This document shows positions 312-63,511 of a stretch of 64,000 nt of DNA, piece by piece. This DNA comes from Moniliella sp. 'wahieum' (taxonomy: Eukaryota > Basidiomycota > Moniliellomycetes > Moniliellales > Moniliellaceae). The stretch lies in contig RSEE01000036.1 of assembly GCA_003971905.1 (NCBI GenBank), positions 248,001 through 312,000 of the forward strand. Reading direction: 5' to 3'. The notes under the pieces were generated by a model. The model searched no databases and had not been told where the DNA came from. It saw only the letters and a list, made by a program, of their open reading frames with translations. The translations under genes and the position numbers were made by a program. Position 1 is the stretch's first letter; each line of letters begins with the position of its first letter.

Positions 312-827
312 TTTTTTATCTGTGGTGGAGATATGGAAGTCAGATCGGAAGGGCGGTCCAGCGAGCAAGGCAGGGGAACGAGCAAAGGTGGAGCAACGTA
401 CGAGTTAAGCCTTGATGGTCTTGCGGGTGAGGTGAACGACGATGAGCTGGCCAACGAGGCCAGCGGTAAGCAGAAGCCTGACTGGATGGTGCTAGGGTTA
501 AGAAGTGGATAATGCACTTTGGAGAGGACGGGACACTGATGATACGCTTGCCCACCAGAATTGCGCCGTAGCTAAACAACGTAGGGTTGGCATCACGTGC
601 TGGAACTGCATTGCTTTGAACAATACTGAAATCTTTGGAATTTCAAAGATGAAATATCTGTGTCGGTGCATTTGAGCTGCGCGTCAGGGATGATAGGATG
701 ATCGATGATCGATGGACACCATTCCGCCTGCCCGGATTCCGTGACATTTTTTTCTTTTCCCCCCCACAAGCAGTAGCACTGCCAGGGCTGCCCCACCCCT
801 CCCCCCACCACCTCTGAGCTCTTCACC
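312..827. promoter_or_regulatory. Divergent promoter between RPL6 and MRT4 with telobox motifs
   Basis: This 516-bp spacer separates two divergently transcribed ribosome genes. It carries two AACCCTA telobox-type motifs on the minus strand (TAGGGTT on the plus strand at 493-499 and 582-588), a CACGTG E-box at 594-599, and a heptamer array TGA-TCGA-TGA-TCGA at 699-712. AACCCTA elements are known in ribosomal protein promoters of many fungi and plants, so the motif fits the flanking genes. A minus-strand stretch at about 412-480 can be read as a short hydrophobic peptide ending LIVVHLTRKTIKA and a stop. I could not tie it to a gene. Confidence 0.6.
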
Positions 828-1768
828 ATGCCGCGCGCACGCCGCAACAAAGTTGTCTCGCTGACGCAGACCAGTAAGAAGACTAGGGCCGACAAGGAGT
901 CTTTCGCGCGACACGGTCCGTGATACCGCCAACAAGTTTACCTATGCATGGCTCTTCTCTATTGGCAACATGCGAAATGCCTACATCAAGGATGTCCGGC
1001 AACTCTGGGAGGGCAGCCGTATTTTCTTTGGAAAAGCGGTGTCATTCGCTTTGCTCTTGGCACGGAGGAACAGAATGAACTCCGACCCGGTATCTCTGCT
1101 CTGTCCAACGTACGTTTCATAATCATGCCGGTTTTTCGGGAACGAAACTAACATGGTTTTTATGCCCTACAGCGCCTGACTGGTCAAGTAGGCATCCTCT
1201 TCACGATTCTCCCCGGAAGAAGTGCAGGACTGGTTCGAGAGCTACTCTCGCCCGCGACTTTGCACGCGCGGGCAACATTGCGACGGAAACGGTCGTCCTC
1301 CGAAGGGGCCCGTACAGATGCGCACCACACCGCCCGAGAATCTGCCTCATCCATCGAGCCCCAACTGAGGCAGTTGGGCATGCCCACCGAACTGCAGCGT
1401 GGTGTGCCTACCCTGCTTCGGGACTTCACCCGTCTGCAAAAGGGCGAGAAATTGAGCAAGGAGGCTGCACATTCTGAAACTCCTGCTTGTCCAGCAAGCT
1501 GAGTTCCGCATTATCCCGCTGGCCTACTGGAGTGCTGTGGCTCGCGGCGATAAGGCAGAGGGTGCATTTACCGAGCTTGAGCTCACTCTGAACAGAGAGC
1601 TGTGATTGAGCAAAGCGGAGCGGACCTGGCGGTAGTGGGTCAATCCGGAACAAGGCAGATGGCACTAAGGTTGCCACGGCCCAGAATGCAAGCGACGACG
1701 ACGAGGACGTTGAAATTGACGATGGCGACCAGGTCACCGACGGGATGCTCCCTGCCCACCTCCGCTGA
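828..1768 (+). CDS. MRT4: Ribosome assembly factor Mrt4 (P0-like)
   Basis: Nucleolar trans-acting factor, paralogous to stalk protein P0, that occupies the P0 site on pre-60S particles. The start at 828 gives MPRARRNKVVSLTQTSKK, a classic Mrt4 N-terminus. This is followed by NKFTYAWLFSIGNMRNAYIK, then a region ending GSRIFFGKSGVIRFALG and a later EFRIIPLAYW segment. An intron at 1110-1172 (GTACGT...CTACAG) separates the ISALSN and RLTGQVG segments. The C-terminus is acidic (SDDDEDVEIDDGDQ) and ends at the TGA at 1766-1768. The frame changes at several points (near 912, 1035, 1213 and in the 1300-1490 region), so the protein cannot be read in one frame outside the intron. Identity is strong; exact structure is limited by these slips. 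Confidence 0.88.
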
Positions 1769-3494
1769 CGCCTTGTTCACCTTTGCCTAGTTTGCCTGCA
1801 TTTCGTCTCGACCCCACACTCCTCGAATGTACTATTACCTCATGGCGCCTAGCTTGGGACCATGGGGGTGGACTGTGACAGAAACCAAACTCAAAAGGTG
1901 CCGAGTGGGCTCCTGAGAGGTTAAAATGGGGAAGATGCTGGATATTCGGTATACAGCAAGCCGTGAACACAGGCACAAACATGCATGACTTGATGCATGA
2001 GTGGGGTCGAGATATATGAGAGAAGGATTGATAGGTGCCTAGATGTCAAGGATCACGCAGTGGGATTATGCGCCAAATTCGAAAGGCTGGAATACTTCCC
2101 TGTCGAAGTGCGGGAGGAATTGAATCCACTTGCGCACCTGTGTGATGCATTCTTCCGCATGCCCGATCCGAAACGCCTGTAAAAGACAGCCGTCTCCCTT
2201 AAGATGAGCTAGGCTACACCCCCCCACCACACGTGCCATGGCCACTGCATGCATCATGAACAGGGCAAAACGCCTCTTCAAAGAGTTTGACCTCCTCAGC
2301 CATCCCCATCTTTTACCAACGATTGTCTCGCTCTCCTCCGGCGTATATATCGCACACAGACATCATTAGCATTGCCGTTTGACATAGGGGCCTCGCCAAC
2401 ACCATTTTATGGTTTAGCAAATTAACAACACCAAGGTTATCAACGAGAGGGGAACAGATTCTACGTGGGCACAGCAACACAAAACAAAATATGCCCCCGC
2501 TCAGCTCACATGGCTCACAGAGGCCAGGCTTGTAGAGGGCGTTGTGAGGATGCTGCGCAGCGCTGACATGGCTGACAGGCTAATACTCTGGCACCTTTTC
2601 CCTTTCAGTATTACTTCCTACACTTGCTAATAGTAGACGTGGAGAGGGCGAAGCCTCACGGCACCGGTGGCACTTCCTCGTGTAGCGCTATTATACAGAG
2701 GGTCTGTTAAATTTACGGGGCTTTCTCTGACAAGCTGTGATGTGATCGACATGTGATCATCGATCATCGATCATCCGATCATCGGTCGACGATCGATGAT
2801 CTAACATTCTAAAGGCAACGTATCCGCAGTCGGTGATGTATGACCGGATGACCGGATGACCGGTGACCAGCCTGGGGCATGAGGCTTGCATCATGCATAT
2901 ATAAGGCCTAAGGTCTAGGCTGGGCAGGCCCAGCCTAGCAGTGGCTTGAAGCTTCCCTGCCGAGCACCGATTCCCCCGCCACGTAACATTTCACCGCGCG
3001 AGCGCGAAGGGGTGCGCGCCATCCAACTGCGACGTGGCGGTCGCCCTCTGTCCTAAATGTCCCCACGCTCCCCCGCGACCATCGACCCTGGCCCACTCGT
3101 GGCGCAGCACTGGCGCAGCCGGGAGCGAGCGGCACTACTGCGACAACGGAACTGACCCTGTATACTGCACCCTGGCAGCCACTGCTGCGCAGCCACCGAT
3201 GAGGCCCGCAACGCTCATCCTATTGACATCTATCCGTCCATCCATCCGTCCCCTGATTATGCAGCCCTATATATAGCCTACAGGTCTACCACCACAACAG
3301 CACGATAGCCCTCCATCCTTCCCACCAAACCTGCAGTCAGCTTGACGCTGTCACCCTCCAACACTGTGCGCCCGAAAGCCGGATCTTTTTGGCACCCTCC
3401 TCTGCACCTCTTCTCCCTCTTTTTCATCTTACCCCCCCACAATCAACCCTCTACCTATATCGTCTCTCTCTTTCTCTTCCTTCCTCTATCTCTT
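1769..3494. other. Gene-free stretch with TATA boxes and heptamer arrays
   Basis: I see no convincing gene here. It holds a TATATAA box at 2898-2904 and a second TATATATA at about 3268-3275, some 220 bp before the GH128 start. A long pyrimidine-rich leader (about 3390-3490) follows, typical of highly expressed fungal promoters. Two heptamer arrays occur at 2757-2775 and 2841-2868. Confidence 0.5.
2757..2868. repeat. Heptamer arrays TCA-TCGA (2757-2775) and TGA-CCGG (2841-2868)
   Basis: At 2757-2775 the heptamer TCATCGA (reverse complement TGA-TCGA) is repeated 2.7 times without interruption. At 2841-2868 the heptamer TGACCGG occurs three times, the first two copies each followed by a single A, then a partial copy. 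Both units are TGA joined to a self-complementary tetramer. Confidence 0.85.
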
Positions 3495-4775: not shown

Positions 4776-5440
4776 ACACCATCTTTTGCCTTTACTTTCT
4801 TCCTGTGCCGGTCACGGGAGGAAGACACTCTGTTACGGACCATTCTCATGAGCTTGGAGGGAGACGTTTTTGTCACTGCACGCGGCGGATGACAGAAAGT
4901 GCGTAATTTCTGCTTTTGCCTTTTGTCCCCACTTTGTGTGGGGACCCCCCCCCCCTCTCTCTTGCTGATGCTAATATGGCCATACTTCTTTGTCATCCAT
5001 TTCTTTGACTTTTTGGTACCGTAGGATGTGTGCGAGCAACGTATTTAATAAACCCTGTCCTGCTAACCCTGACCCAACCCTCTTGCGCACCGTCATTCGG
5101 GAGATACTAGCCTTTCTGAAAACCTTAATAAGGTGTCACATGTCATTGGGTTCAAAATGCTGATGCATGCCTGGAGCATGATGCAGGGCATATGCATGAT
5201 GCATGATGCATGATGGGGCACATCAGCTCATCAGTGCACCCGCGCGCTGATCGCGCTGATTGCGCGGATCATAAGGCGCGCTCTGGCAGCATAACCGGTA
5301 ACAGCAGGCATGCCGGCTTGAACATTGCATGGGCCACTGCCCTTTGCCCGGTGGCTGATGGCATGCATACTCGGTATTCGGCCCAACGAGGCGCGGCTAA
5401 TGCAGTGCCCGTCCTCGCATTCTTCTGCCCCACCTCCACC
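4776..5440. other. Intergenic stretch between GH128 gene and ERG7
   Basis: No gene seen. It contains AATAAA at about 5046, a T/C-rich 3' flank of the GH128 gene, and a perfect heptamer array in the ERG7 upstream region. Confidence 0.5.
5193..5213. repeat. Heptamer array TGCATGA x3
   Basis: Three perfect tandem copies of TGCATGA, a rotation of TGA-TGCA, run at 5193-5213 about 230 bp upstream of the ERG7 start. A copy of the same array occurs at 44106-44125. Confidence 0.9.
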
Positions 5441-9899: not shown

Positions 9900-9932
<33 letters not shown>

Positions 9933-17933: not shown

Positions 17934-18115
17934 GCTGTGAGGCTGACGAAGAGGAAGAAAAAGAGGAGGAAGCAAGCGGGGGGAGAAAGAGGCGGTGGTG
18001 GCGCGGAACGAACGATAACGGGCGTGAGCTGGGCGAGCTGGCGAATGGGAAGCCAGGGTAAGGCCAAGCCTGAGCCTGGCCACCTGAGCGTTAATGTGGG
18101 CGCGGCGCTCAGCGA

Positions 18116-18136
18116 TGATCGATGAGGCCTGAGGCC
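18116..18136. repeat. Mixed heptamer array: TGATCGA, TGAGGCC, TGAGGCC
   Basis: Three heptamers follow each other with no gap: TGATCGA (18116-18122), TGAGGCC (18123-18129) and TGAGGCC (18130-18136). Two different palindromic tetramers (TCGA, GGCC) share the same TGA phase, which plain slippage of a single unit would not give. Confidence 0.9.
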
Positions 18137-20501
18137 CATCGCTCATCGGCTCAACCACCTGCTTGGTGCAGCTCCATCGCCATCCCTATGACGTGCATGA
18201 CGTCAGCACGCGCTCACCGCCACCAACCCAGCCAATGCACAAAAACAAAGTTCACGGGCGAAACCAGAGATCGGTAGACGCGATGGCAAGGCACGCCTCT
18301 GAAAGTTGAAAAAGGTGTGATACGGCGTCACCCCTGTCACATGCCCTTTCGGCGCTGAGGCGCTGGGAGGCGCTTAGGCACTTTAGATGTCACTGTCACA
18401 CTGTACGTTCACTGTCACAGTTGTCACTGGTTCCCATGTCACATGTCGCGTGCCGCTCATGCGGCGTACTCTTCGTCCCCTCTCCATGTCCTCCCCAGCC
18501 ATCGAGGAGTCAATATTCATCTCTGCTCTCCACCACACCGTGTCTTGGTCTCATCTCCACCCACTGACTTTCGCGTGGCTCGTGCGGCCTATATAACGTT
18601 CAAGTGGAAACCCTACTATGAACCACAGCCAGCAGCATGCCGGGCGAGACGGGCTGGGACGAAACGGAGGAAGGGAGACGATTGACAATATTGACACCCC
18701 GCCAGGCATTATTGTGGCTGCTGTTCCCACGCCCCTGGCCAAAAGTGGCTCTCCTCCCGCCGCCATCGCTGAAGATGACAGAGGGTGTCATGCGCATGAC
18801 CCGAGTCAGATCTCAGAGCCGAATACGCTGCCCTGTGCCCTCTTCATTGAAAGCTCTCACAACACCGTGCGGCTGGAGAGCTTATTTCCTCGGTCGTCTC
18901 GCATTGGAGCAGTCTCATTCTCGAACCGCCCCTGCGCCTCCTCCACAAGTAGGGGTTGCGAACATAGCTTGCGCCCTGTGCACCCCCACTTGTGTTCGCC
19001 ACCCCTATAGAAAAGTACTCTTAAAAGACTGTGGCTCGGTCGTCGTTCGCTTTCCCATCTCCATCGCCCCACCACACCGCTACGCCAGCTCACTCTGGAC
19101 GCAATGTCCCCTCTCTCGTCCAATTTTAAAGGAACTGTGACCACACTTCATCCCCTTTCGCTGGCCGTTCGCGTTTATATGCCTGGCCGCGGTGTGCAGC
19201 ACCTTATCCAATGCTCGAATGACGGTCCAAAAGGGGTGGCACCTTCGTTGGAGGGATGGCTTTGCCGCCGATGGGTCAGCTATGCCCCCCCTTGCGCCTC
19301 GACCCATAAGGTCACTGCCCATGCCTGAGCCCGAACGTTGCACATTTCTCTCGTCAACCTGTCACTCTGACTCAACTTTGAGCAGCGATGAGCCACGGAG
19401 TTGACCCATTTTTAGCAAGTCTCTCCTTCCACCTACGTTAAGTAGGCCGAGACGGAGCAGAATGATGGCATTTTACCAAAGAGAACACGTCCTCTTGTGT
19501 GCGTGTCTGACGCGGTCCCAGTTTATCTCTGTTTCATGAGCCCCGGATCACACGAAAGGATCCTTCCAGCACACTAACCCTTTCACAGTGGGAAGGTAGA
19601 AGGCCATTCGGTTAAACGACCAGTGGGCCAACGAGTGTTGTACTAACAGATACGAGGTACGTTCCCATATTCTTGAATGTGGATTCAATCTTGATATTGG
19701 CGTCACGGCTGGGGAGAAAGGATAACGCTGACCAAACTTTTTCAACAGCTTCTTTTTCTCATCTTTTTACACTTTTTCGTTCCATGAGCCAACCAATTTA
19801 GCAGACACTTCTTTTCCATTTCACCTACCAGCACAAGTGTATAGCACCCCCCACCGTTTCATCATCTGCGCACACTTGCCATTCCTGAATTCATACGTTT
19901 GAGCGATTGCATTCCACCTTATACTGATGCGGGTGAATCCATAGTATCGTTTGCTCAACTTCATGTTCACTATGCTATAAAGGATGCCTTTCAGTATTGA
20001 GACTGAGTTCCGTTTATCGCTACTGTCTGGATGGTGGACACTGTGGTGATGCATCAATCATGCATCTTATGAACGTGCCAGCATGCATATGAGCATACGA
20101 ATCCCCCTGTCCTATATCCATAAAAGCTTCTGTTGCCAGCGGGGCTGTATTATGGATTGAACCATGTAACGAGAAAAGTAGGCTGAGACGAGAAATAGGA
20201 CATGCAACTCCATTCGCCTCTGGTATACATCGCCCACTTCACAAAAAGGTAGACGGATGCGTTGTAAAGCTTCTGAAGGGCCCAACAGTACATAGGAGAA
20301 GAGGCAGTGTGGGAGGGGGAATAGTCGCAATTGTGGCAATAGCATGCACCTGCCACCAAGCCGAAAAAATCAAGAAGGGGAACCAAAGAGTATATCCACA
20401 CTCAAGAAGTAAAGTAAAACACCTTCACGTGCTGGAAGCGCTGTTGAAGCACATATGGACGCAATGTGGTCTAGGCCAATGTGAGAGAAGAGGTGGGCTT
20501 C
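18137..20501. other. Gene-poor stretch with one possible orphan gene
   Basis: No homologue recognised in 2.4 kb. A TATATAA box at about 18590 lies 25-50 bp before ATGs at 18618 and 18637. The frame from 18637 stays open for 167 codons to 19140, but shows no domain and could be chance. The remainder is AT-richer and contains tandem words on TGTCAC near 18390-18440. Confidence 0.3.
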
Positions 20502-20983: not shown

Positions 20984-21852
20984 GGTGTGAGTCGTCAAGG
21001 CTATCCGAGTTGGCGGGCCCAAACGGAAGCGGGCGTGCTCGTGGGTCGGAAAGGAGGGGGTTAAATACGAGTGGTCGATGATCGAGATATCACCAGCCAG
21101 TGTCCAGGCACAGCGCCTGGCACAGCCAAAACAGGCGACAGTGGCTGTGAAGCCGAGGCGGCGGTTCGGCCCAAACGAGGGCGGAGAGGCCGCAGTGCAG
21201 TGCCAGGCAGTACCCCAGTGTCGTTACCTGTTAGTGGTCCCTCTCTCCTCGTCCTCTCCGGCTTGTCCCCACATCTCGGACCGTCTACACAGGGGCCGGG
21301 CGGGGGGAGGTAGTGGAGGCGTGGGGAGGCGCGGGGAGGCGCGAGGCCGCCCCAAGCTGTACTGCTGCCGGCTATACCCTGCCATGCACCATGTATCAGA
21401 GACACACTGCCGGAGGCACGTCTTTCATCGATGATGGATCGCTGATGGACCGATCAGCGTATCAATATCAACGCCTTGGGGGAGTGGCGGCATCCGCGTG
21501 GGTGGCGCGGGGCGGCACAAAGCGGCCCCTGCTCGTCCCATCGGGGGCAGTGTGGCGCGATGTATACGCGTCGCAGACAGGAACCGCGAACGAGCAGAGT
21601 GACGAATGACTAGTGCGGCAGAGAGCGACTGGGTCCTGGGCAGAGTAACGGAGTACTGAGGACACTGAGAACTGACTTTCCGCCTCGTTCATACGCTCAT
21701 CCCGCCGCCTCCAGATGCCCGTGCGGGGTCAAGGGGCGGTCACTGGTCACGCGGGTCACGGTCACTGGTCAAGCCACAAGCTCAAACAGATCCAGCACTG
21801 GCCAAGCTCGGAGATCGAGATCTGAGTTCTGTGATATGTCGCAGGCTACATG

Positions 21853-21918
21853 TGACATGTGACATGCGAGGCTGTGACGCGTGACGCCTGAGCGCCTGAG
21901 CGCCTGAGGCCTGAGCCC
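21853..21918. repeat. Dense heptamer tract with CATG, CGCG, GCGC and GGCC units
   Basis: TGACATG twice (21853-21866), then TGACGCG and TGACGCC (21875-21888). Then TGAGCGC plus C twice (21889-21904), TGAGGCC (21905-21911) and TGAGCCC. Nearly every TGA is followed by a self-complementary tetramer, in a near-7-bp rhythm over 66 bp. Confidence 0.8.
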
Positions 21919-23797
21919 GCTAGCTTGATCGAACTTGAAGAGCTTGAAGAGCTTGAAGCCTGACGCGTGCATTTGGTCGATGGTCGGGTGATCGCGGGGA
22001 GAAGCACACAGGGACACAACCTGGCACAAAACGCCCCGCACCTACACACAGACGTACACGTTACACCCTCTCGTACATCGCGACCCTCACCTCAGGGCCT
22101 CAGGCCCCCCCCAGAGGTCCCCAAGGTCCTCAGGACTTCAGATCTAAGCCTCACATCTCAGGCTTATAGCGCTTAGGCCATGGGCCTTAGGAGAGAGCCC
22201 CGCTGTTTCCTCGCCCACAAGGGTGTTTTGTCTTAAGAGGTGTGGACGGACCAGATTGAATATTGACGATCAAAGTCGATTACCGGCACATAAGCGTGGG
22301 CACAGGCTTTGGGCCAGTCTTAAAGCTCAAGGAGCTTTTAAGGAATTTAAGGGGCCTGACCGCCTTCTGGTTAGGCCTTGTTATTATAATAAGACTCGTG
22401 CGGCTCCGGTGTGGCCATCCACTTCGCCGCAGCCGCCGGACCAGATGAAACATTCCCGGTGGCATCCTTCGGAGGCATTTTGTTAGGAAACTCGCCCTGC
22501 GGTAGCCATCCTTTGTGTTTTCAACCAAGGATCAAGACCGGGTGACAAAAAGAAACGCTGATGAGGTCGATGAGGCATATATACTTCAAGATTTTTGTCT
22601 TTCACAGCTTTGGTATCCCCCCCTCACCAGTCAGCATATATTACTAGAAAGGTGTCATCATGTATACCAACAAAACGAGACCGGAAGATACCGTTATAGG
22701 GCAGGAACTGCTCAAAAAATTCGACGATTCGACGGTCGCAATGTGGCCGAGTACAGGAATCCACTCAACTACATACGGCTCTCCCCAATCCCATCAGCCC
22801 TGTGCCTCCGGATCACCGACGAGCAGGTTCAGGCTGTACACCCGCACCCAACAGTCCATTATTGCGTGAGGCGATGCGAGAAGCCATTCTCCAGCTCGTG
22901 CGCTCCATCCCCGACACCTACATCCACAATGAGCCGACTATGGAGGAGGAGGATGGGACGAGGCGTGGGATAAAGGCAAAAGCCGTATACTGACTACCAA
23001 GGGCTGGGACCTAGCTCATTCGGAAGTGCAGGAATGGAGGAAGACCATACGCGTTGCGGGACTCGGGAACGCGGCCAAATCGATGTCTTCATACCGACGG
23101 AGGATGCTACGCGAGAGCACCGCAACAAAAACGCCTTTGGAACCTCGGGAGAATAAATGATCTGCTTGCTTGGCTGTTGGAACAGTAGGCAGAATGCGAC
23201 AAGAAGGCCGAGTACCACAGGGTCGCGCTCAAGAACCCTTCCTCCTGTTGTGGTTATGACGACGCGAGGATACTACGGCACCAAGACGGCGGGCAAGATG
23301 TTTGCGCATTGGAAGGATTTGGCTACTAAGTCTCAGTGGAAATGGTTCCTCGCTCGGATGTCAATCACGTTCATACGTGTCCACACGCGCTTCCTAGGGT
23401 ACGGGACCGGATGGCGAGAACCGGAGGGTCCTGATATCCTGGCGATCCCCTTGGTTCCTTAACCTGGGTGGTGCTTCCAGGTAACCCCCGCAAGATGAAC
23501 GGTTCGGTTTAGACGTATAGCGTTCCCCCTGTCCCTCCAGCCTTAAGCTCTCTGTCAATGATATGAACCCATCAGCCCCGTTTGCTGAAGTGATATCATG
23601 GATCGAGTGCGTTCGGTGCCATTTATGACACTTTCCCTTGTGGTGTATATGGAGTGTGCGCTCTTATCAGAAACTTGGGAGAGGGAAGCACGCAGGGGGT
23701 ATTGTAATACGAGAGGATACACCTCTCTTTCTTTCCTTTTTGTGGAGGAAACGCACTACATGTCTTTGCCATATGTGCATCACATCTCTCTCGCATC

Positions 23798-23816
23798 TCA
23801 GATCTCAGATCTCAGA
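23798..23816. repeat. Heptamer array TCAGATC x2.7
   Basis: TCAGATC repeated 2.7 times (reverse complement TGA-GATC), the GATC member of the heptamer family. Confidence 0.85.
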
Positions 23817-25043
23817 GAGCAAGCCTGTGTGTTCCACATCAAGCAGATATCCACTGGAAAGCCACATATACTTGTGTGGCTTGTGAGGTATTTGGTGCTC
23901 TCTGTGCCCATATACAAGAACTTATCGACGTCATCATCAGTCTCTCGTCATGATATTTGGATACGAGTATGATGTGTGTGTGATTCTATAGCCTGCGTCT
24001 CTCAAACGCTTCGCATATGACTATGTGTCACATCTGTGTTGCTACTATTCTGTCAAATAGAAGTACCATCTCTCTGCTACCTTCATAATTTGCCAATATT
24101 ATGCACCATGTGCATATGGCTCGCCGGAAAGGGTCATGACGGTACTGGAGTGCAAGGCAACCTTGCGATATGGTTTGTGTGGGGTCAAAATTGAGAGCGG
24201 GGTATAGAGGTAAGTATAATGATGTCAACCTAATGATGTTGACGTTCTCGCGCCCTCACACTGACTATAATCGGGTACCATAGTATAACGCGTGACGCAG
24301 TGTACTAAGGCTCATATATCCAACGAAGAGGCATCTCTCCACTATACATCGGGTGCATCAGGGGGGGTTAGGGACTGTTCTAAATGTTGGGCCAATCCAC
24401 ACAGGAGGATTAGCGCGAAAGGATTACCGCATGTTGTGTAGAGGACACAGGCATGCACATGCATCACACACGTTGCGGCCCAAGCACAGACGCACCTGTT
24501 GGCACACTAGCTACATGCAGAATGAGATGCGTTCATCGAGTTCACCAATTATAATCATCGATCGTCGACCATTGAACATTGACCCTCGCCTGCCGCCGTC
24601 AACGCGTCAATCATCGGGGCGTCGAAGGGAAACCCACGTTGGCTTGGCTTGACTAGTGAGTAACTAGTAACTGGTGGCTAGGTGATTTGGCTTGCGCCTG
24701 TACTGGAAAGGAGCAGCACACTATAGTTGTGTGGGCTGGCGCAGGCATTGAATATTGATGTCTTCTCAAGCTTCCGTTGAATGTTGAACATGGAATCGAG
24801 TATTCAATTCTCAGCACTGTCTCATCTACACCGCCCCAATCTCTGGTGGCTTATTTTGCGACGTTCAATATTTGGCGAGAGCTGATAGCCTGCAAGTACC
24901 GACCACCATCTCCCTGCTGCTGTGGGCTCCATGCTGTGCGCTGGCCGCCTGCCTCAGTGAAGTGCCAAACGCAGCTTGCCTGTGCTTCTAGGATCCCTGC
25001 CTGCATGCCCCCTCCGCCGCCGCCCCGGCCGGGACGGTCGCAC

Positions 25044-33402: not shown

Positions 33403-36123
33403 GAGAGACAACAGGGTTAATAAGCTCTCGGCCCTTCCGAGGATGCAACAAGCTTTTGCCAACAGTGTATACTAAGCGTTTTGCCTAACATGTTACATGT
33501 CTATTTGTGCTATGTCGTGGTGGTGTTAGAATCCCGACTTACGGTGACTAGCCTACTGGCGCTGTGGGATTTTTGGCTTCTGGCCCCGCACAGATACCCT
33601 GGACAAGAATCATTAATCAACGAGTGGCAGCAGATCCTCATCGCCTCATCTGCGATGATCGATGAGGAGGCTTTTATTGGAAAAACGCGAAGAGGACTGT
33701 GAGAAAGACTGGTGGCCACTGCCAGAGTGGCCCACGAAACACTATATATAGAAGACTATACATCAGATGAGATGTAGATGAGATGATATAGGAGGCAGCG
33801 ATTCTCTTGTAGGCTGTGTTCTTCGCTCTTGAGAGCTTGAGCATGGATCGCTCCTCCGATGGAAGCAGTGCATGCAAGCAGTGTACCAACGGCTATTCAT
33901 ATTAGCTGCGACCTACTATATAACGCCCAACGCCCCAACAATAGCACCCGGACAAGAGCGAAGACTCGAACGTTACGATAAAAAAAGAATCGCGGCGAGA
34001 AGGCAACGACACACGTGTGTACAGACCCCTATATTAGCCCTAATACTTTCGATATAGTATCTCTATTGCCACAGAGTATAGGTCGTGAAGCTGATGAACC
34101 TCGCAAAGCGGGTCCGTTATTCCCCTCGGATACCGTTTCAGGAGGTGCAGGAGGTGTTGCATCATGCATCACTCATCATTCGCTTTACTCTGAGAGCCTC
34201 TTGACAATCTGCCTCTTCGCCACTGTCATGGGGCGGAGTCCCGAGGTGAGACCCCCACCCCAGTAGTTTTTTAGGGATATAAACTCTTGGACAGGCCAAT
34301 CGGAGTCTCGTACGTTAGGTCCTACTGCTTCAGATCCTGGTTGAACCGAGCGGGTGTAGAGGTGAGGGAGAGACCCTCTTTTGGGTGACTGCCTGCGTGC
34401 AAAGGCCGCAGCTCAGACCCTCCGAAATAGGAGCCGTGTACGTAAGTCGTTAGACCAGTTCAACCGGTCCAGGAGCTCCGAAGTTACTCTGTTCCCCGCA
34501 GCGTTGCCAAACTCGGCGCGCTGTAGTATAGGTGGAAACAGACGGCGTCCTTATGAAGAGCAAGCGCTACTGATAGTATAACCGCGACTTGTAGAGTACT
34601 CGATGAAGTCGTAAATTCGTAAGTGGTTGGTGTAGAAGGTTGGAAAGGCGAGAGATAGGAACGGGAAGTGGGGAGACCAAAGACAGAGAGGATGGTCTGA
34701 TCGACAAGGACCACAGTTAGCAAGCCCTGGACATGGCTGGTATATACAGAAGGAACCAGGCCTCAAGGGCCTCAAGTGCCTCATGACAGGTATAAACAGA
34801 ATGCGGAGCACTTTCCAGAGAGGTAAAAAAGACTAATACACAGCCCATGCTCTCAAAGGCGCTGACGCTGCGTAGTCGGGCGCAGCGGGAAGGGTTCTGA
34901 TGAGACTTGGAGTCCTGAGAGGCCTGATGGTCCTCGAGGGTGATGCAATCGCACTGGTGGTGGTGGTGGTCTAAGCCAACCAGCAACGCCTACAGAGGAA
35001 CAACAAGCAGCGAGTCGCCACCAGGGGCTAAGCTGCAGAACAAGGAAAAACAAGAGAGAGAAAACACGGAACTCCCGGGCTGAGGAGGAACTGAAGGGAC
35101 ATTGGCCAAAGCACGAGCCACACGATGGCTCAACAGGTTCTGCCAAGACTTGGTGCAATGGGCGCAAAGCATCGTACCAATGAACCCACGCGACCTTGGT
35201 GGGCTGGGGATGATATCCGCAGCATGGACAAGATGTCGACTGGCTCTCTCTCGTACATAGCCTAACAGGACTGACGGTGTTTGGATGAGATGTCTACGAC
35301 ATGCGCGGCTCAGCGTCCGGAGATAACCGGAGCGCCCCGTAACATCCACATTGGGCTTAGGTACTACTGTCGCTTGCGCTCTAGACTTTCTCTACCATCC
35401 GGGACTCATCCATCGCAGACGATAGTGGGGGGGTGGACAATGAAAGAAGGACCGAGAGTACGCCAATTGGGACACGGAACTTGCACCATGATGGCTTGAC
35501 GTAACCGGCACGGAATCCTCCCCGTTGTCAGCAACTGGTTCAGCAGTCAGTGGGGCGCCTTACATCCAGACAAGTGTGGGTCCTGGGTACCCGGCGCTCA
35601 CCGTCGTGGGCGGAGGGAACCGACGCAGGTGGGCGTTACTACTATATGGCTAGCGAGTCGGCGAGTGGTAGTAGTAGGGTTAAAAGCGTTCTAGCATCGC
35701 AGACAAGCAGAAACATGCTGACGTAACCAGACAGCAAGCCATAGTGGGCCATCGGGTCGTGGAGACTGGCAGCGAATGACGAAGGGCTCAGAATGAGCGC
35801 AGAGCCTCAGCTCCTGCCCTCGCCTTCGTCTTATTCCATTCGACTCGATGATGGTACCAACGCTTGCTGTTTACGCGGGGCCGTTTCAGAGGATGCGCTG
35901 CACACGAGAGCACGGTCAGATCCCAGACCAGGCCTCATCCACAGTTGCTCTAGCTACTTTGCAGATTTGGATTTGCGCTAGTAAAATAGTTGCAGCCGCG
36001 AACGCTGGTTTGGTAATAATGCGCGTAATTACGTGGACACTGATCCGCTGCGCTGTGGCGCAGCGGAATGTCGTGTGGGGCTTCCTGTTAGACTACCCAT
36101 CGCCCACCAACCACCATTCCAGG
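33403..36123. other. Gene-free stretch before the p24 gene
   Basis: About 2.7 kb without a recognisable gene. It holds TATATATA at about 33743, a TGA-TCGA-TGA word at about 33656-33665, a GGTGGT run near 34955-34970 and several TAGGGTT or GTAGTAGTA words near 35660-35680. Open frames here are short and show no domain. Confidence 0.4.
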
Positions 36124-39693: not shown

Positions 39694-41292
39694 TTAGCGT
39701 CCGGAGCGTTCGAGATTGTATGCGCGGACAAAGGTTTCGACTCCATGAAAGAAGGGACGGAACTCTGCAAAATTGTCACCCTCAGTCATGAACGTCTCGT
39801 ACTGGTCCAATTTCGGATGCTTGGCGCAGAACATGCGTGCAGAGATAATACGAATCTGAGTTAGGTGTGTGGACAGGCGGATCGATCGCTGAGAAACAGG
39901 CCACCTGGAGGTAAAGCCATGCGTGGTGCCACCGGTTCCGCTCTTGTGGAGAGAGGGAGGTTCTTGGATACGGCCGTTGCCGAGAACGGGCAGAGAGTCG
40001 TTGCCTAGGCCGACGGGTCGCATACGAAAGGGATGAGGTTGAGGTTTGGATTGGAAGGCAGTAGAGAGGGTAGATCAGGAAAGTCGGGGATAGAGAGGGA
40101 TCGGCTGATCCCTCCATCAGCTCTTCCTCTTCCGCTTGTTCCGGCTCGGGAGCGAAATGGGATTCTGGACCAGGCGAGGGCTCGGCACTTCCTTCGTCAT
40201 ACGTTGCAAGCGGGGGCGAAGAGCTCTCTTGTTCCATTGTTTGTATAGGAGGCGGAGTAGGCTGCAAGGCGGACGTCCTTCACCGTCTTTTGTCGCCCCT
40301 GGTCCCATGGAACTAGAGGCAGGCAAAAAAGCACTGGGGTGCCACCTTTTGTGGAACAACTGCACCTCAAACACTCGTTCTTCGAATCGGATGCGCAACT
40401 GCAGTTGGCTAAGCAGTGTGAAAAACCATGTTTCCTGGGGGCCCCGCCGACTTGCGGCCTTTATTGTGCACCCATTCCCAGTCCTGACCACAGAGGCGCA
40501 AGGCCCAACTGTTTTCCAAACGCCAACTGCTGAATGACCTCCAGCGGTATCCCGTCAGTTGCTGTATCTCCGCCAGAAACTCTTTAACCGAACGGCACCG
40601 CGTAGAGGCCTCATCCCTGTCCTTAATCACCATCAGGGGTGGGAACTCCTCGATGCTCATACGGCCCATAAAGTCCAAAGATGTATTTTTGGTCCGAGAT
40701 ACGCGGATCGCTTCGACCAGGTTGGCCAGGTCGAGGTAGGCGGGTACGTGCGGCGATGGAGTTTGCAATTGCGAAAGACCTTGCCATTCTTGATAAAATC
40801 GGCTTTGGGAAGTTTGCGATGGCAGGCCCCGCATACGATCCAGTCTGGCGCCTCTGCGAGCGGCATCGAGTACGGACCACTGGTTCGAGGCTTCGAAGAG
40901 CTCGGGCGAGATGTATCCTCTGTGAGCTGAGACCCCAGAGGTTCATGATCAGAGAGAGGGTCGCTTATTTGGTTTATCTCGTCCTGCTCCTCGGTGTCCT
41001 CGGCATCGTCGGCATCATCGGCATCTGGATTAACATCCGGTGGCCAGGCGGCGCGTTGGTGGTGAGCCACCGCAAGATTGGCGTTAGGGGCGTGCAGCAA
41101 GTCCTCACTGGGCATGCAGGTCGACGTGAATTCAAGGCTCGGATCCAGCTGGGATGCAAAGTGGGTGGAGAAACACAGCAAAAGCTGGCGAGCCCCCTGT
41201 GGTTGGTGTCCACCCGCAGGCGATTGGGGCAAGCATGCTTGGAGCCCAGATGAGGTGGGGTTAATTTCGTCGATTGCAACCTTCACCGCCAA
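39694..41292 (-). CDS. Putative zinc-cluster DNA-binding protein (WRKY-GCM1/FAR1-like), tentative
   Basis: Not firmly assigned. The N-terminal 210 residues are in one frame from 41292: an acidic segment (DADDADDAEDTEEQDE), then WIVCGACHRKLPKADFIKNG and KVFRNCKLHR. That is a C-x2-C...C-x2-H arrangement which could bind zinc. A second module in another frame reads IEEFPPLMVIKDRDEASTRC, EFLAEIQQLTGYRW, LCGQDWEWVHNKGRKSAG, and then LQLRIRFEERVFEVQLFHKR followed by WHPSAF. The order of Cys, Cys and His-x4-His recalls the WRKY-GCM1-type clusters found in many basidiomycete proteins. A Pro/Glu-rich linker precedes a final block (HPKLDQYETFMTEGDNFAEF) ending at 39694. At least three frame changes are involved. 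Confidence 0.45.
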
Positions 41293-43513: not shown

Positions 43514-44042
43514 GCTTACGTCGGGTTGGTTGGGAAACAGAACAGATGGAGGGGAGGGGGTGTTCCAGGGGCGGTGGTGGGAGCAGCAACGGTGGTGAGG
43601 GGGAGGCAAGGGAGCAAGGTGGATTGTTTTGTTAGGCTAGCGCTTATGCCTGCGTTGGCACTACTCACGTTCACCGATGAGATCGATGAGCCTGTTTGCG
43701 GGGGCGGCGGGGGCGCAGGGTTGGCGCAGGTGGTCACCGGTCACTGGTCATTGCCGTGGGAGAGTTGCCCAAAGGCTGCGGACGCGCGGGGCCTGCTGGC
43801 GCATGGCGATCGATGATGCCATGCGACCGATGATCTGGGCTGAGCACCGGGGCGCCCAGCCTCTAGCCTCTCATCGGTGATCGAGATCGCGGAGTCATGA
43901 CGGCAATGATGTTCTGTGAGGCAGTGCCTTGGTAATCGATGACATCTTCAGCGATCCACCAGTGACTGGCAACCAGTAGCTTTGCTGGTGACTGGGTGAT
44001 TAGTGTGACCAGACTTCGCTGGTGCGGGGTAGGCACCTTACC

Positions 44043-44125
44043 TGAGGCCTGAGATCCTGAGAGCCTGAGGCCTCTGGGGCCTGGCCAGCCTGATGGGATG
44101 AGTAATGCATGATGCATGATGCATG
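44043..44125. repeat. Heptamer arrays TGA-GGCC/TGA-GATC and TGCATGA x2.9
   Basis: TGAGGCC is followed directly by TGAGATC at 44043-44056, then further TGAG units ending in TGAGGCC near 44066. At 44106-44125 TGCATGA is repeated 2.9 times, matching the array at 5193. Confidence 0.85.
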
Positions 44126-44332
44126 GACTCTTTTTCCGGCCCGGATATAACAGTACACTGGGCCTATGCGACGTTGCTCCGGATATAACCTGGCCCGGTC
44201 CGGACACTGATGGGCTAAGCGCTAATTAGAGACTGAGCACATACTGAGCGCCATCTAGTCTTCATCGTCACGCGTCATCATCAGGAATCACGCGTCAGGC
44301 GTTACGCGCTACGCGTTACCTGTTACCGATCA

Positions 44333-44356
44333 TCATGCATCATCGATCATCGATCA
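44333..44356. repeat. Mixed heptamer array on TGCA and TCGA tetramers
   Basis: The order is TCA, TGCA, TCA, TCGA, TCA, TCGA, TCA with no extra base. Two different palindromic tetramers alternate with TCA in perfect 7-bp phase over 24 bp. Confidence 0.92.
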
Positions 44357-44633
44357 TTTCATCATTGATCATCCATCAAAATTGTCATCTCCGTGGGGAC
44401 ATGATATAGCTAGGTGCGAGGGGGCTGTCTCTCATTTCCACACGTTCAGAAAGCGCTCAGCGTCACACGTCAGCCGCCGACTGGGGCGGTGACGGTGACC
44501 TGTGGTGGCCAGCGGTGGCCCTCGCCGCCAATACCCGCCCAACCAATTGGAATGCAGAGGCGGAGCCGCTTTTCAGAATGATAGAAACGCCCACACGAAG
44601 AACGCAAAGCTACCTCGTTCCCCGTCACGCGCG

Positions 44634-46951: not shown

Positions 46952-46952
46952 A

Positions 46953-48431: not shown

Positions 48432-49080
48432 TATCTGATGACGGGGGGGGTCAGAAAAGCGGGCAACGAGAGAGAACGAGCAGGACATACACAAGCTTGT
48501 CGACTCGAGGCAAAAGCGGTAGGTGGAAGAGAGAAGAAACCGCGCGCAGCGCGCAGAAAAATTTGAAGAGCCGTGGACCGTGCGCGCGCACCGGAATTCG
48601 GAATACAATCAACCTCGTTATGTAATTCTTCCGCGGGATTCAATATTCAATTTTGAAGATTGACGCGATTGAACATTGTAAATGGATATTGGGATCTGGG
48701 ACAGCCAAAACGATGCTGTCTGGGCATTATGTCCAGCATTTCCAACCCACAAGACCATATCAACTGAGTAATACTGAGTACTGAGTCAGTACTGACTGAA
48801 TACTGATTCGCGAGACTGATCATTTCGATCATTGTACTCCCACCCCAACAGCATAGCAGGTTTGCCCAAGCTATGTCCCTTCTTGCTCACGACTGCCCCA
48901 AGAGTGACAGTCATACCACAGAGCGCATCCCCAAGTCCACAATTAAGCTCAAGTCTCTCGCTCATACGCCGCTCCTCATTCCCCTTCCCGCATATGCTCA
49001 TTGAAGAATTAAATCTGGACACAGGCGGTCAAGTTTTACATGCCATCCTGATGGCGGCCCTTCAAGCTTGCTGATCGAGT

Positions 49081-49104
49081 TGAACGTTGAACGTTGAACG
49101 TTGA
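49081..49104. repeat. Heptamer array TGAACGT x3 plus TGA
   Basis: Three perfect tandem copies of TGAACGT and a closing TGA. Confidence 0.92.
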
Positions 49105-49334
49105 TCCTTTTCTTAATAGGGGACGCACGCGCGCGGCGTATCGGACGAAGTCGAGCGTGAGCTTGACTATAGGGGTGCATTGACTTGGGCAGCTGGATGG
49201 ATCGCGGCGGCAGGGGCTGGCAAACCCACCAACACGGACATCATTTCTCATTGGCTTGCCAGTGTACCCAGCGCTCAGCTGTCTGAGGGCCTATAACTAG
49301 TTTGTCACAACTGACTGTCAGACTTAGGAGTTGG

Positions 49335-49396
49335 TGACCGGTGACCGGTGACCGGCGGGGACTAGGTGACTGGCTCAAGCTTCAAGTGACTAGTGA
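49335..49396. repeat. Heptamer array TGACCGG x3, then AGCT and CTAG units
   Basis: TGACCGG is repeated three times perfectly at 49335-49355. Twenty bases on, TCA-AGCT-TCA (49375-49384) and TGA-CTAG-TGA (49387-49396) follow each other. Confidence 0.9.
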
Positions 49397-49711
49397 CTGT
49401 CACATGAGTGACTACGACTGCGACCTGTGTTCTGCCGCTTTAAGTGTACAGCCCTCCTGCCTTGGCTCCTCGAGCGGCCGCACTGGATCAGCCAGGATCG
49501 CTGCGCAGCCGGCGCAGCACGAGCCCAGTCTCGAAGTGCGAGTGGCGCAGCGCAGCACAGGGCAGTACTCCGCTTAACGGTAGACGTTCAAAAACACCGA
49601 GGGGTCCGTAACGCTGCCGGCCTATTGCTTCTCCCACCACCTTCTGTGCCCCGTCTCGTGCCCATCCTTGACAACCTTGACTGGCTTGACTCTTCAACTT
49701 CAACCTTGACT

Positions 49712-60001: not shown

Positions 60002-60400
60002 AGAGAACAGGGAGATGGAATGAGCATGGGGCGCGCCGCCTGCGAGCGGAACTCTTCCGCCCGTCGCCGCTAAGCGAGCGTCACCGATCAACTGAGGGTC
60101 GTGCAGGGGAATCCTCACACTACCCTTCAACAAAGAGGACCCACTTCTATATAACGTTGAAGTTCAAGATTCAATTCAGTTGAACGTGGACCGCCTTGAA
60201 CATTGAATACGAGGAGTGCTATCGGATGATACTCTTGTGCCTTCGCAGCCTTCGAGCCTTCGCTTGCTTCTGTTGGAGAGTAGTGCCTAATGCGGGGTTC
60301 CCCTGCGGCCCTCGGTAGATCGGTGACGCTCACTTAGCCGGGCGGAAGAGTTCCGCTCGCAGGGCGCGCCCTGCTCGCTTCATCTCCCTTCTCTCTCTCA
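60002..60400. mobile_element. Foldback/MITE-like element with about 120-135-bp inverted arms
   Basis: The left arm (about 60002-60136) and right arm (about 60265-60400) are inverted copies with scattered mismatches. The core CTGCGAGCGGAACTCTTCCG is identical in both (about 60039-60058 left; its complement at 60342-60361 right). GCGTCACCGATC and GCAGGGGAA are also shared in order. The inner loop of about 130 bp is AT-richer and contains TATATAA and TTGAAC/TTGAAT words. No coding capacity. It could be a non-autonomous DNA transposon or a transcribed long hairpin. Target-site duplications were not clear by eye. Confidence 0.7.
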
Positions 60401-61252
60401 TCAGGCCTCAGGGTCCACCGGTCATCCAACAGTCAGCATCCTCCTTTATCCCACCTTCCATTCTCGTCCCTTCCCACATTTCTTGTCCAACTCCTGACCG
60501 TTTCCAGCCAATTGATTGAAGTAATACAGGCAACCTCTCGTCTCCACTTAGCTGCCTCATCTTCATCATCCAAACCTCATCCGCCATCGCGCGCGAACTT
60601 TCCTTCAGTGGCGTCGATTCCCCCTACCACAGCGGTATCGCGTGGGTTCCTTTCACAGCTACGTCCACAGCGCCCCCCCCCAGCTTCAGCCCTGGCAGTC
60701 TTTGTCCTCCACAGCATCTACCCGTCCCTAAGCTCCGGAGGCTTCAGACACGTTACTACCCCCAAGGCGGCGCATACGCAGCCTTTCCGCGCGTGCGGCC
60801 GCCTCGGCTTCACGCCCAAAGGCTTCTCCTCGGCTCGGATCCATCAAATAGCCCAAACCCGAAACTACCGCAGTCGGCAGTGGCGGCACAACTCTCGGCG
60901 TGGATTGAAGGAACATGTGCGCGAGTGTGGTCGTTGGTGCCGCAATGGGGGCCCGCAGTGAGCACGGGTAGGGGGCATTTTAAGGGAGTGGAGGGACGCG
61001 TCGACGCGACTCTGTCATATGCCCGATACTTGGCGCAGCCCCCCCCCCCCCCGTCACGTGCAGGGGGGAGCAGTAGGGTTGCACACTTTTTGATGGGTCC
61101 TGCCATATGGTAATTAAAGATTCAATGTGCCATCACGTAATCCCTGTGGTCAGACTGAGACAATGTAAAACAGCGGGTGCACAGGCATTTAAAAGCAGCG
61201 GGTGGGCTGTCGCCACGCAATTCCCCCCCATCATCTCCCAGCGCTGCTCGCG
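60401..61252. other. Intergenic stretch after the foldback element
   Basis: Open frames are Ser/Pro-rich and without domains. A run of 14 C lies near 61040-61053. An arginine-rich frame at 60860-60960 is probably chance. Confidence 0.35.
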
Positions 61253-61922
61253 ATGAACCGCTTATTCGGTGCCGCTGCTGCTACTCCCTTCAGTCGCGTC
61301 AACTTCTTGCTCCTACTGCCCGCACCCCTGTCCACCTCATCTATTCCTCCTCGTCCTCTTCTGTTTCCTGTCTACCCTCCCATGCTTCTCAACCGTCCTC
61401 GTATGATTCATGTCCATCCTCCAGTCCTCCAGCCGTCCTCTTCATCTTCTTATCCGTCCTCCCATTCCTGTCATGGGCTCGCTCCGCGCCACACAGCCTC
61501 GTGCTTATCCTGCTCATGCACCCTTCCTTGACACATACTATTTCTTTCCTCGTTTCTTTTGACTTATTCCTTAATTGGGGTCCTTCTCCTTCTCCTTCTC
61601 CTCTCCTTCTCCTTCTCCTTCTTTCCTCTCCTTCTCCTCTCTCTCTTTCTCCTCTCCTTCTCCTTCCCTTCTCCTTCTCCTCTCTTCTCCTTCTCCTTCT
61701 CCTTCTCCTTCCGACCACTCCTTCTTCACGACCCGCCCAGACTTGGTCCACGTGTTTGAGCCCCACCTCCTTCCTGACGCTGAGCGCCGCGCCGCCTACT
61801 ACGCCAGGCGGAAGGCGGGGAGCAACAAGTACAAAACCAGGCTGGCACGCCAGCGCGCTGGCTCCGACGTCTCGCCTGGGCCATCTCCCCTTCGCCGAGC
61901 TTGGACCGCGGACGACTTTTAA
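61253..61922 (+). CDS. Possible small gene with basic C-terminus
   Basis: Weak call. An ATG at 61253 reads MNRLFGAAAATPFSRVN and ends LLFPVYPPMLLNRPRMIHVH before losing coherence. After a long TCC/TCT tract, frames near 61735-61922 give DLVHVFEPHLLPDAERRAAY and YARRKAGSNKYKTRLARQRA, ending RRAWTADDF with a stop at 61922. That C-terminal block looks like real protein, but whether it joins the ATG at 61253 (through an intron covering the pyrimidine tract) is a guess. No family recognised. Confidence 0.3.
61579..61708 (+). repeat. CTCCTT-type polypyrimidine microsatellite
   Basis: About 130 bp of almost pure pyrimidine on the plus strand, built from CTCCTT, CTCCTC and TCTCTC units. Such mirror-like tracts can form triplex (H-) DNA. 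It could also be an intron's pyrimidine tract. Confidence 0.85.
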
Positions 61923-63497
61923 AAGATAGTAGGCTCCTGTTTGTTGTGCTTTTTAATTGGTTTCGCTGTTTTGTTTTTGTTTGATGAAAAAAGACGTTGG
62001 TTTCCTCTCCTCTTTTGATATCTGCCATAGCAGGAAGCCATACTAGTAGGAAGCCACAGCGAGCAAATGGTACATCGAGTCATTGCAGACAATATCATCT
62101 CACAGTCGTATTCTTTTTGATCGGTTCCTGTCCGCTAGGGGTTCACAGGCGACACGCTGTGGCCTTGTTGCAGGGTGAGAACTACCGAAGGCTATGGACG
62201 AGAAGGACAGACAGCGCATTGGTCAGGGCAGCAAACACAATTGTGTGATCCCATGTGATCTGTGATCCGGGGAGGACTTGCAGCACTTGAAGCATAACCG
62301 GTAACCACTACTTACGCCACCTAGCCGTGGGTACTATTTCATAGTTACAAAAACTCTCAAAATAGCGCATGGTTCTGACGCAGACGCCTGCCGCCACCGC
62401 CACACCGCCACCGCCTCCCCGATCACCCGCTCGCCCTCCCCGAGCCACAAGGCTCCTCCCCACTCAACGGAAGATAGCATCGCGTAATGAAGTGGAGCCC
62501 ATCGAGGGGATAGTCGAGCACGTTTTATATTACTGCACCGACTGTGCCAGGGGAGGAGCACCTGGAGCTACTTAGCAATAAATTCAACCGCTATGCTCGA
62601 TTTCCCCAACGCTTTCAACACTGTGCGCCGTCGCACACTCGCAAACGCGCCCTACTGTTATGCCCCCCTCTCCTCTCTTCGAGCACCTCGTGACGGCGTA
62701 CCTGGACGCAATTTACCATGTACTCGGTACAATCACTTTCAGTAGCTACAAAATGTTGCAGTGGTTTCTATTGTCATCAATGCTTCGTTGGGCCTGCGCT
62801 TCTGTACGCAGCCGATGTGTCGCACATGTCAGTGGAACGTGGACGATCAAACATGATTAACATGATTTCCGCGCCTCTGCGTCGATGCGATGACGCTCGA
62901 TGACGCTGGGAGGATCATTGATCGATATTCGCCGTCGGGCGCTCATGCATCATGCGCTATGACGCTCACCTGATGATCCGGATGGGCAATCTGATCAGGA
63001 GAACGGGTAAGGTCAGTGATCTAGGTGAGCGACTTTCCCCGCTTTCGTAGACCAGGATCCCAGCCAACCCATTGCGCCCGTCCACCCAACTCCGATGCCC
63101 ACGCGCCCATGCGCCCACGCGCCCAGCGCCCACCCCTCCGCCCAGCGGGGTTGGCTGTCCAGGAACAGAAACTTGCCTTGTGCCCAGGGGCAGCAGGGGG
63201 CAGCCGCCTTATTCGCCGTGTGCTTGGCGCGGGGCATTAGGTGGCAAACAGTGGCTAGTGGCAAGCGCCAGCCAGGGACCAGCACGCAAGGCGCTGCAAT
63301 GGACACAGGCCCGGAGCCAGTCCCAATCGATGATCCGTCAGCGCGTCAGCTTAGGTGACCGGTGACGGTGAGCGAGTGATCGTCGGCTGGGCACCTACTG
63401 AGTACCGAGTCTCAGTTTTGAGTTGGGTTCAGAGGGTGCTGCAGCACGGCTGCAGGCACCCGCGGCCCTCGAGGCGACCCACTCCCAGCGACTGCAG

Positions 63498-63511
63498 TGA
63501 CTAGTGACTAG
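63498..63511. repeat. Heptamer array TGACTAG x2
   Basis: TGACTAG twice in tandem, followed by imperfect TGCTAG and TGACTGACTAG words to 63528. Confidence 0.8.

Follow-up and report, generated by a model that had tools for sequence, protein, structure and literature searches.

Short tandem repeats are usually ascribed to slippage, and short heptameric or palindromic sequences are known from several described systems. The short tandemly repeated repetitive (STRR) sequences of cyanobacteria are heptanucleotide repeats with a few fixed heptamer units per genome. Palindromic (P) nucleotides and fold-back fillers are added at broken ends in V(D)J recombination, in transposon excision and in the templated insertions of polymerase theta, and transposons leave footprints, of which TACATGTA of Tc1 is an example. 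Short template-switch mutations, described by a four-point model, arise by copying forward, back on the other strand and forward again, and these events vary in size and place and lack a fixed anchor. We analysed a 64,000-bp stretch of DNA with 56% G+C (hereafter the window), part of contig C36 in an assembly of 69.5 Mb and 223 contigs, which carries a dispersed family of 7-bp tandem repeats combining the triplet TNA (N, any base) with a palindromic tetramer. The best overall explanation of these repeats, to which we assign a probability of about 0.8, is that they record one stereotyped templated insertion, repeated many times. To our knowledge, no such insertion has been described.

By its copying path, the process is a fold-back or template-switch insertion, and its fixed anchor and size set it apart. 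The product has the form U-R-U, with R reverse-complementary to a stretch nearby, which fits the forward-backward-forward path of template switching; here, however, a 5+2 size, a TNA anchor and a single adjacent dinucleotide dominate, and the events are frequent enough to build genome-wide repeats. As with P-nucleotides and fold-back fillers, short palindromic additions lie beside a junction and are templated by the end itself, but clean cases involve neither deletion nor variable length, and the copied bases are the two adjoining TNA. Transposon target-site duplications and footprints likewise place a short direct repeat on either side of a 4-bp palindrome, whereas the palindrome described here follows the flanking host DNA and varies by site. 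Unlike in these transposon-related systems, no mobile element was found in the parts inspected.

Writing a site as xyTNApq, with y'x' and q'p' for the reverse complements of the flanking dinucleotides, the unit event is very probably a 7-bp insertion that turns xyTNApq into xyTNA-y'x'-xyTNApq when the left flank serves as template, or into xyTNApq-q'p'-TNApq when the right flank does. The alignments indicate that the inserted 7 bp combine a 5-base direct duplication with a 2-base reverse-complement copy of one flank. The birth of the repeats is visible here as pairs of empty and filled sites, and it does not resemble slippage. Positions 454001-493000 of contig C21 represent a second haplotype of window positions 15404-51323. 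Over 34,169 aligned bases, the two haplotypes differ by 2.7% substitutions and 530 indels, among which are twelve indels of 7 bp, two of 14 bp and two of 21 bp. Six of the twelve 7-bp indels lie outside arrays, and all six of these clean cases obey the rule, four being left-templated and two right-templated; five of the splits were listed by script, and the sixth, at 48674, was read by eye, the script's scan having stopped short on the left.

In one clean pair, the window holds the filled site, ATTGA-AT-ATTGA at 24747-24758 (indel at 24752, left-templated), opposite an empty ATTGA on C21. In the other five, the window is empty. The left-templated cases are GGTGATC at 21987-21993, which reads GGTGA-CC-GGTGATC in the other haplotype, ATTGAAC at 48668-48674 (ATTGA-AT-ATTGAAC) and TCTCA at 49246-49250 (TCTCA-GA-TCTCA), and the right-templated ones are TGAAC at 34095-34099 (TGAAC-GT-TGAAC) and TCACA at 44463-44467 (indel at 44468; TCACA-TG-TCACA). 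In all six pairs, the palindrome is the product of the insertion, made from a non-palindromic flank. The first-pass annotation had suggested template switching seeded by palindromes, or an intergenic mutational bias; both guesses pointed in the right direction, but palindromes need not seed the event, as they were its product in every clean pair. Among the remaining 7-bp indels, those at 23810, 43751 and 43968 lengthen an array or an already palindromic heptamer (the last being AGTGACT at 43961-43967, empty in the window and doubled in the other haplotype), and the one at 18442, read by eye, obeys the rule with one substitution.

The longer allele of the twelve 7-bp indels belongs to the other haplotype in nine cases and to the window in three. 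We infer that the longer copy is the one that gained the insertion, because sites occur far above chance and something must therefore make them. Within the aligned part, the window carries 39 sites and the other haplotype 50, and 22 are present intact in both. The 45 unshared sites (17 in the window and 28 in the other haplotype) lie opposite a gap of 7, 14 or 21 bases in 14 cases, a substitution in 6 and another indel in 25, some of these last being 1-bp differences that are possibly assembly errors. On the best reading of these data, the insertion process has been recent enough for the haplotypes to differ. Larger haplotype gaps also exist, such as window positions 40347-41177, which have no counterpart in the other haplotype.

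The repeat grammar itself was re-examined in the window and in a blind sample of 20 stretches of 10 kb, taken at the same coordinates (400001-410000) on contigs C1-C20 without regard to repeats; population counts refer to these 264 kb together. Expected site counts came from third-order Markov sequences, with the cores A-N-T, C-N-G and G-N-C as controls beside T-N-A. The annotation had described the unit as TGA plus a palindromic tetramer, and 17 of the 18 array coordinates that it listed do hold TGA or TCA with such a tetramer to within a few bases, although four of these arrays (44043, 44634, 49375 and 48640) are only 1.4-2 units long. The exception, at 2841, has period 8 (ATGACCGG) rather than 7; this variant spans 2840-2868 and leads into the in-register 10-mer TGACCGGTGA at 2857. 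The window has 36 stretches of 14 bp or more with an exact period of 7; the odd-palindromic class accounts for 23 of them, and 20 consist of TGA or TCA plus a palindromic tetramer, a class that makes up 1.4% of possible 7-bp units. In the blind sample, palindromic units make up 78 of 150 period-7 runs, TGA/TCA accounting for 59 and TAA/TTA for 17; palindromic runs with other outer pairs number none for T..A, one for C..G and one for G..C. TGA/TCA is therefore the most frequent core, but given the TAA/TTA runs the true core is T-N-A with any base at N. G or C occupies N at 200 of 248 sites, close to the 73% found among all TNA triplets. The twelve of 16 palindromic tetramers first reported for the window rise to 15 there, and all 16 occur in the 264 kb. 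Fourteen of them have 6-38 sites each, and the rarest, TATA with one site and AATT with two, are indistinguishable from background.

The comparison with randomised sequence bears out the excess. TNA-palindrome(4)-TNA with the same N on both sides occurs at 248 sites, against 8-9 expected, while the arrangement with complementary N has 22 (8 expected) and that with any other N has 19 (11 expected). The control cores A-N-T, C-N-G and G-N-C yield 8, 36 and 22 sites, against 6, 22 and 29 expected, and every one of the 20 blind stretches holds at least one TNA site. Equally common non-palindromic tetramers would have refuted the annotation's claim, but they are not favoured in the same way: same-N chains of three TNA with identical tetramers number 24 for the 16 possible palindromic tetramers and 5 for the 240 non-palindromic ones. 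Of the inner palindrome lengths, only 4 is strongly used; lengths of 3, 5 and 6 show increases of about 2.5- to 3-fold, and length 11 (25 against 0.4 expected) is taken to reflect two-unit arrays. When sites are aligned, the common element is 14 bp long, corresponding to two abutting heptamers, and similarity at distance 7 is near background outside it. Both heptamers have, or once had, the odd-palindromic form xyTNAy'x'. Heptamers of this form are enriched 1.4- to 1.6-fold, and a general excess of palindromes was ruled out, as odd palindromes with an AnT, CnG or GnC centre show no enrichment (0.85-1.06).

The templating flank can be read from the sites themselves. Left only, right only, both and neither account for 71, 71, 66 and 40 of the 248 sites, against Markov expectations of 0.4, 0.6, 0.0 and 7.8, and the left- and right-templated classes together number 3, 6 and 3 in the AnT, CnG and GnC controls. 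The 71:71 ratio of left to right indicates that the events are strand-symmetric. Among 158 isolated sites, the corresponding numbers are 48, 50, 32 and 28, so that 130 are flank-templated, compared with about 12% by chance. Plain non-palindromic 7-bp duplications around TNA are above the Markov expectation (18 against 0.6) but no commoner than those around AnT, CnG and GnC (14, 24 and 40), and palindromic heptamers that abut one of a different sequence are seldom seen (7 cases). Considering the 71 and 71 one-flank sites, the lack of an excess of plain duplications over the control cores and the few double palindromes, the event looks one-ended, with one flank copied back, seldom none and hardly ever both.

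Genome-wide motif counts, each compared with the count of the same motif reversed, follow the same pattern. GTTGA-AC-GTTGA occurs 2157 times against 40 for its reversed control, while nine inserts differing from AC at both bases together reach 247 (control, 109). The 17-mer TGATCGATGATCGATGA occurs 666 times (control, 7) and a 19-mer 390 times (control, 3). With AGT in place of TGA, the palindromic geometry was found 11 times; the motif counted as its reversed control, TGATG-CA-TGATG, itself obeys the rule and occurs 3769 times. The copied length is also constrained: one 3-base copy-back motif occurs 5 times in the genome (control, 0), and of the 447 five-base duplications in the 264 kb that carry a 2-base reverse-complement insert, 274 have the TNA core, whereas TNA is not prominent among the eight commonest cores of the 1-base form and only 2 cases of the 3-base form have TGA.

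Repeated events account for the array grammar, given hot spots. After one left event, a site would read xyTNA-y'x'xy-TNApq, and a second event would have four options (left or right, at either TNA), three of which would lengthen the same unit and one of which would add a pq palindrome. The rule thus predicts same and different palindromes in a 3:1 ratio, and three-TNA chains with constant N show 24 and 10. Both predicted flanks are present in 6 of the 10 mixed chains, one flank in 3 and none in 1. In the window, the mixed chain gaTGA-TCGA-TGA-GGCC-TGAgg at 18114-18134 (gaTGATCGATGAGGCCTGAgg) is the product predicted from one left and one right event at a single site, and another, caTCA-TGCA-TCA-TCGA-TCAtc, lies at 44331-44378 with an irregular continuation. 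Hot spots are suggested by the clustering of sites, 32% of inter-site gaps being shorter than 100 bp against 11% expected. Boosting palindromic targets in simulation was tried and rejected, as it gave 0.2-0.4 mixed chains against the 10 seen, which makes regional hot spots the preferable addition.

The remaining arrays of the window conform to the same unit structure. Arrays of TGA units occur at 697-714 (GATGATC, TGA with TCGA, 2.6 units), 5192-5215 (TGCA, 3.4 units), 21848-21866 (CATG, 2.7 units), 44105-44125 (TGCA, 3 units), 49079-49104 (ACGT, 3.7 units), 49333-49355 (CCGG, 3.3 units) and 63496-63513 (CTAG, 2.6 units), and arrays of TCA units at 2755-2775 (TCGA, 3 units) and 23795-23816 (GATC). 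Doublets are formed by TAA with CTAG (N = A) at 24659-24672, TCA with ATAT at 48638-48651 and TGA with CTAG at 49385-49398, and a cluster of TGA with GTAC spans 48764-48806. Several of these differ between the haplotypes: the window allele is 7 bp longer at 23795-23816 (indel at 23810), the other haplotype is 14 bp longer at 24659-24672 and 21 bp longer at 49333-49355, and 21 bp of the 48764-48806 cluster are missing from it. At 49333-49355, both alleles contain GGTGACC, and adjoining GGTGACG repeats are found in the other haplotype only.

Transposable-element subterminal repeats were also considered as a source and set aside, as neither of two array regions used as queries belongs to a high-copy element. 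In a genome search with these array-bearing queries, of 741 and 701 bp, each matched, besides the window, at least one further copy over its full length, located in either case on contig C21 and in the opposite orientation (90 and 79% identity), and the remaining matches, at least three and two respectively, were all short and partial.

A site-specific, fold-back-templated insertion process is the best reading of these data. Because usually one flank is copied and rarely none, and because N is kept and not complemented, we tentatively propose a nick and fold-back route, in which a single-strand nick would open two bases 5' of TNA and a polymerase would copy the five bases xyTNA in strand-displacement synthesis. 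The 3' end, once displaced, would then fold back on TNA, A against T, be extended by two bases (y'x') to the base of the fold and be ligated to the waiting 5' end at x, and the resulting 7-base hairpin would be fixed at the next replication. For the right-templated form, the nick would lie on the other strand. Such a route would yield exactly one templated flank, a preserved N and exactly 7 bp. The simplest addition to it would be a candidate enzyme with specificity for TNA plus two bases. It is conceivable, if somewhat doubtful, that an active 'writer' with sequence specificity is at work in this genome, either a nickase or a transposase-like protein, domesticated or mobile, which acts two bases from TNA and is followed by 7-bp one-ended fold-back repair.

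Several observations weigh against this explanation. The fold-back route alone leaves unexplained both the position of the nick two bases from TNA and the preference for T..A over other complementary pairs, and no enzyme or repair pathway is tied to the process. No templating flank is seen at 40 of the 248 sites, more than the roughly 8 expected from background, and the flank dinucleotide, though it varies broadly, is not free: relative to its share beside TNA, GA is over-used 1.9-fold, while TA, TT and GC fall to 0.11, 0.17 and 0.32. Two of the twelve 7-bp indels break the TNA rule, the one at 35847 wholly and the one at 21917 with the right geometry but a GCT core, and the haplotype evidence as a whole comes from 34 kb and few events. 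Relatives with longer periods, which the fold-back route does not cleanly predict, are also in excess: duplications of six bases with a 2-base reverse-complement insert (period 8) number 84 against 13 expected, and those of seven bases (period 9) 73 against 4.7; in both, TNA most often follows the copied dinucleotide directly (35 of 82 and 30 of 73). Nor does the rule predict GTTGAACGTTCA, in which the second N is complemented and which occurs 473 times genome-wide against 15 for its control. This motif often lies within the perfect palindrome GTTGAACGTTCAAC, and since a number of its listed pairs are two bases apart on opposite strands, part of the count represents a longer perfect palindrome counted twice; the complementary-N class shows little flank templating (5 of 22). 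Finally, a simulation with evenly placed events gave 2.6 same and 1.8 different chains, against the 24 and 10 seen, so hot spots or clustered events must be added.

The main rival is a symmetric double-strand break. According to this explanation, which we regard as unlikely, a transposase-like or nuclease activity makes a staggered break centred on TNA, with 7-base overhangs or a 3-base TNA target duplication as variants, and hairpin-opening end joining leaves 7 bp, so that the sites are scars of mobile elements. TNA is symmetric about N, as a dimeric enzyme would need, and the fixed two bases between TNA and the fold suggest a cutting enzyme; two-base hairpin-derived P-nucleotides are typical of hairpin opening, and the clustering of sites also counts in its favour. 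However, symmetric two-ended repair predicts plain 7-bp duplications or templating from both flanks, whereas plain duplications around TNA do not exceed those around the control cores and different abutting palindromic heptamers are confined to the seven cases noted above. Moreover, the inserted bases track the local flank at the 130 templated isolated sites, unlike the constant residues of transposon ends. Inspection of the borders of a few large haplotype gaps revealed no obvious element with a target duplication. A profile search of the genome found no PIF/Harbinger transposase domain (PF13359), a weak negative, because the polymerase A domain (PF00476) was missed there as well; the latter absence is itself uninformative, since mitochondrial polymerase gamma, which carries PF00476, should be present.

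Ordinary replication slippage, by which pre-existing palindromic heptamers would be expanded into microsatellite-like arrays, is very improbable as the source of the grammar. Some loci (23810 and 43751) do differ in length by exactly one unit of an array already present, and insertions spread evenly do not on their own yield enough chains. Slippage, on the other hand, copies existing sequence and would not make palindromes of non-palindromic flanks, whereas in all six clean pairs the new heptamer is palindromic and so not an exact copy of the neighbouring unit. It would also be expected to show no preference for TNA and an excess of plain 7-bp duplications, and a mixed chain like the one at 18114 requires templating from both flanks. 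Templated insertion remains the preferred source of the repeats; slippage may add to long arrays but is unnecessary for the grammar.

That the repeats are selected platforms for a dimeric or tandem DNA-binding protein, the dimeric version having been put forward at first, is more improbable still. The sites are clustered and commoner outside long open frames, but 14 of the 16 palindromic tetramers serve, only 22 sites are intact in both haplotypes out of 39 and 50, and a matched control brings the shortage of sites within open frames down to about 2-fold. A dimeric platform is further contradicted by the orientation of the TNA copies, which are direct (248 sites with the same N) and not inverted (22 with complementary N), and by the variable tetramer. 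A sequencing or assembly artefact of the long-read genome is equally hard to credit, for although 334 of the 530 haplotype indels are of 1 bp and several open frames look broken by eye, 22 sites occupy identical positions in the two haplotype assemblies, and machine error is not expected to favour TNA and one flank dinucleotide at the genome-wide levels counted.

With templated insertion as the source, a puzzling repeat grammar is reduced to one countable mutation with a fixed product. An insertion so stereotyped, with its preference for TNA and its copy of exactly two adjacent bases, points to a particular enzyme or lesion as its cause. If a writer exists, it would be an endogenous site-directed mutator seeding tens of thousands of heptamer repeats, considering that 248 sites in 264 kb scale to some 65,000 in the 69.5-Mb assembly, and it might be coupled to a system of hot spots, for instance breaks that arise in meiosis or with replication. 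As two haplotypes were assembled for this stretch, the haploid genome may be about half of the assembly size. If the process is general among relatives, it would leave across the lineage a mutational signature that could serve in dating and in strain typing, and would warn that short palindromes in such genomes are not, on their own, evidence of protein binding.

Sites are commoner outside long open frames, being 4- to 6.5-fold rarer per kb within them and 3- to 4-fold rarer per TNA. Because TGA and TAA are stop codons, a matched control was used, consisting of TNA pairs with a non-palindromic tetramer, and it reduces the depletion to 1.7- to 2.1-fold. Selection against sites in genes is expected because a gain of 7 bp is a frameshift. 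None of the 62 window sites falls in six Pfam-matched stretches (2,151 bp), a weak result given that about 2 were expected.

Heptamers of related form occur outside this genome. GTTGAAC is one of the palindromic heptamers centred on TNA, and a 19-mer of this unit was found in at least 120 stretches of prokaryote genomes and in 18 viral contigs, and these 138 bacterial and viral loci (1.03 Mb), chosen by that unit, served as a control of the grammar and not as a survey. Like the repeats described here, they have a 7-bp period and are dispersed; the difference is that one unit dominates them, the one by which they were chosen, as against the 14 well-populated tetramers of the fungus-like genome. 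In the listed loci, the tetramer is ACGT at 489 of 532 sites, and the unit has varied by substitutions. Other tetramers account for 43 sites, 9 of them flank-templated, in these 1.03 Mb, compared with 231 sites, 193 of them flank-templated, in the 264 kb. With the matches masked, the listed loci retain 66 flank-templated TNA sites, against 4-12 in three Markov runs, a moderate rise of the TNA class that reflects the choice of loci by one such unit. The bacterial heptamer arrays are seemingly a separate phenomenon. Among the matches listed, arrays of GTTGAAC type, often with ATTGAAC and GATGAAC variants, occur in Bacteroidales, Verrucomicrobia, Chloroflexi, Geomonas and others, and the viral-collection contig IMGVR_UViG_3300042816_000144 has seven dispersed GTTGAAC-array matches in 11.8 kb.

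The window as a whole is eukaryotic and fungus-like, by impression probably from a basidiomycete, with short open frames, an intron-like stretch of about 60 bp with GT...AG ends near 1110-1172 (read by eye) and one tRNA-Asp. Pfam families were matched for 6 of its 8 long frames, including casein kinase II beta, NDUS4, a Pro-kumamolisin domain, an M50B peptidase and a 7TM channel. Some open frames are seemingly broken by single-base shifts, which, together with the abundance of 1-bp haplotype indels, suggests that some long-read error persists in the assembly. At 61581-61711 there is also a long polypyrimidine tract rich in TCCTTC, with a 6-bp unit in 22 copies and 83% matches.

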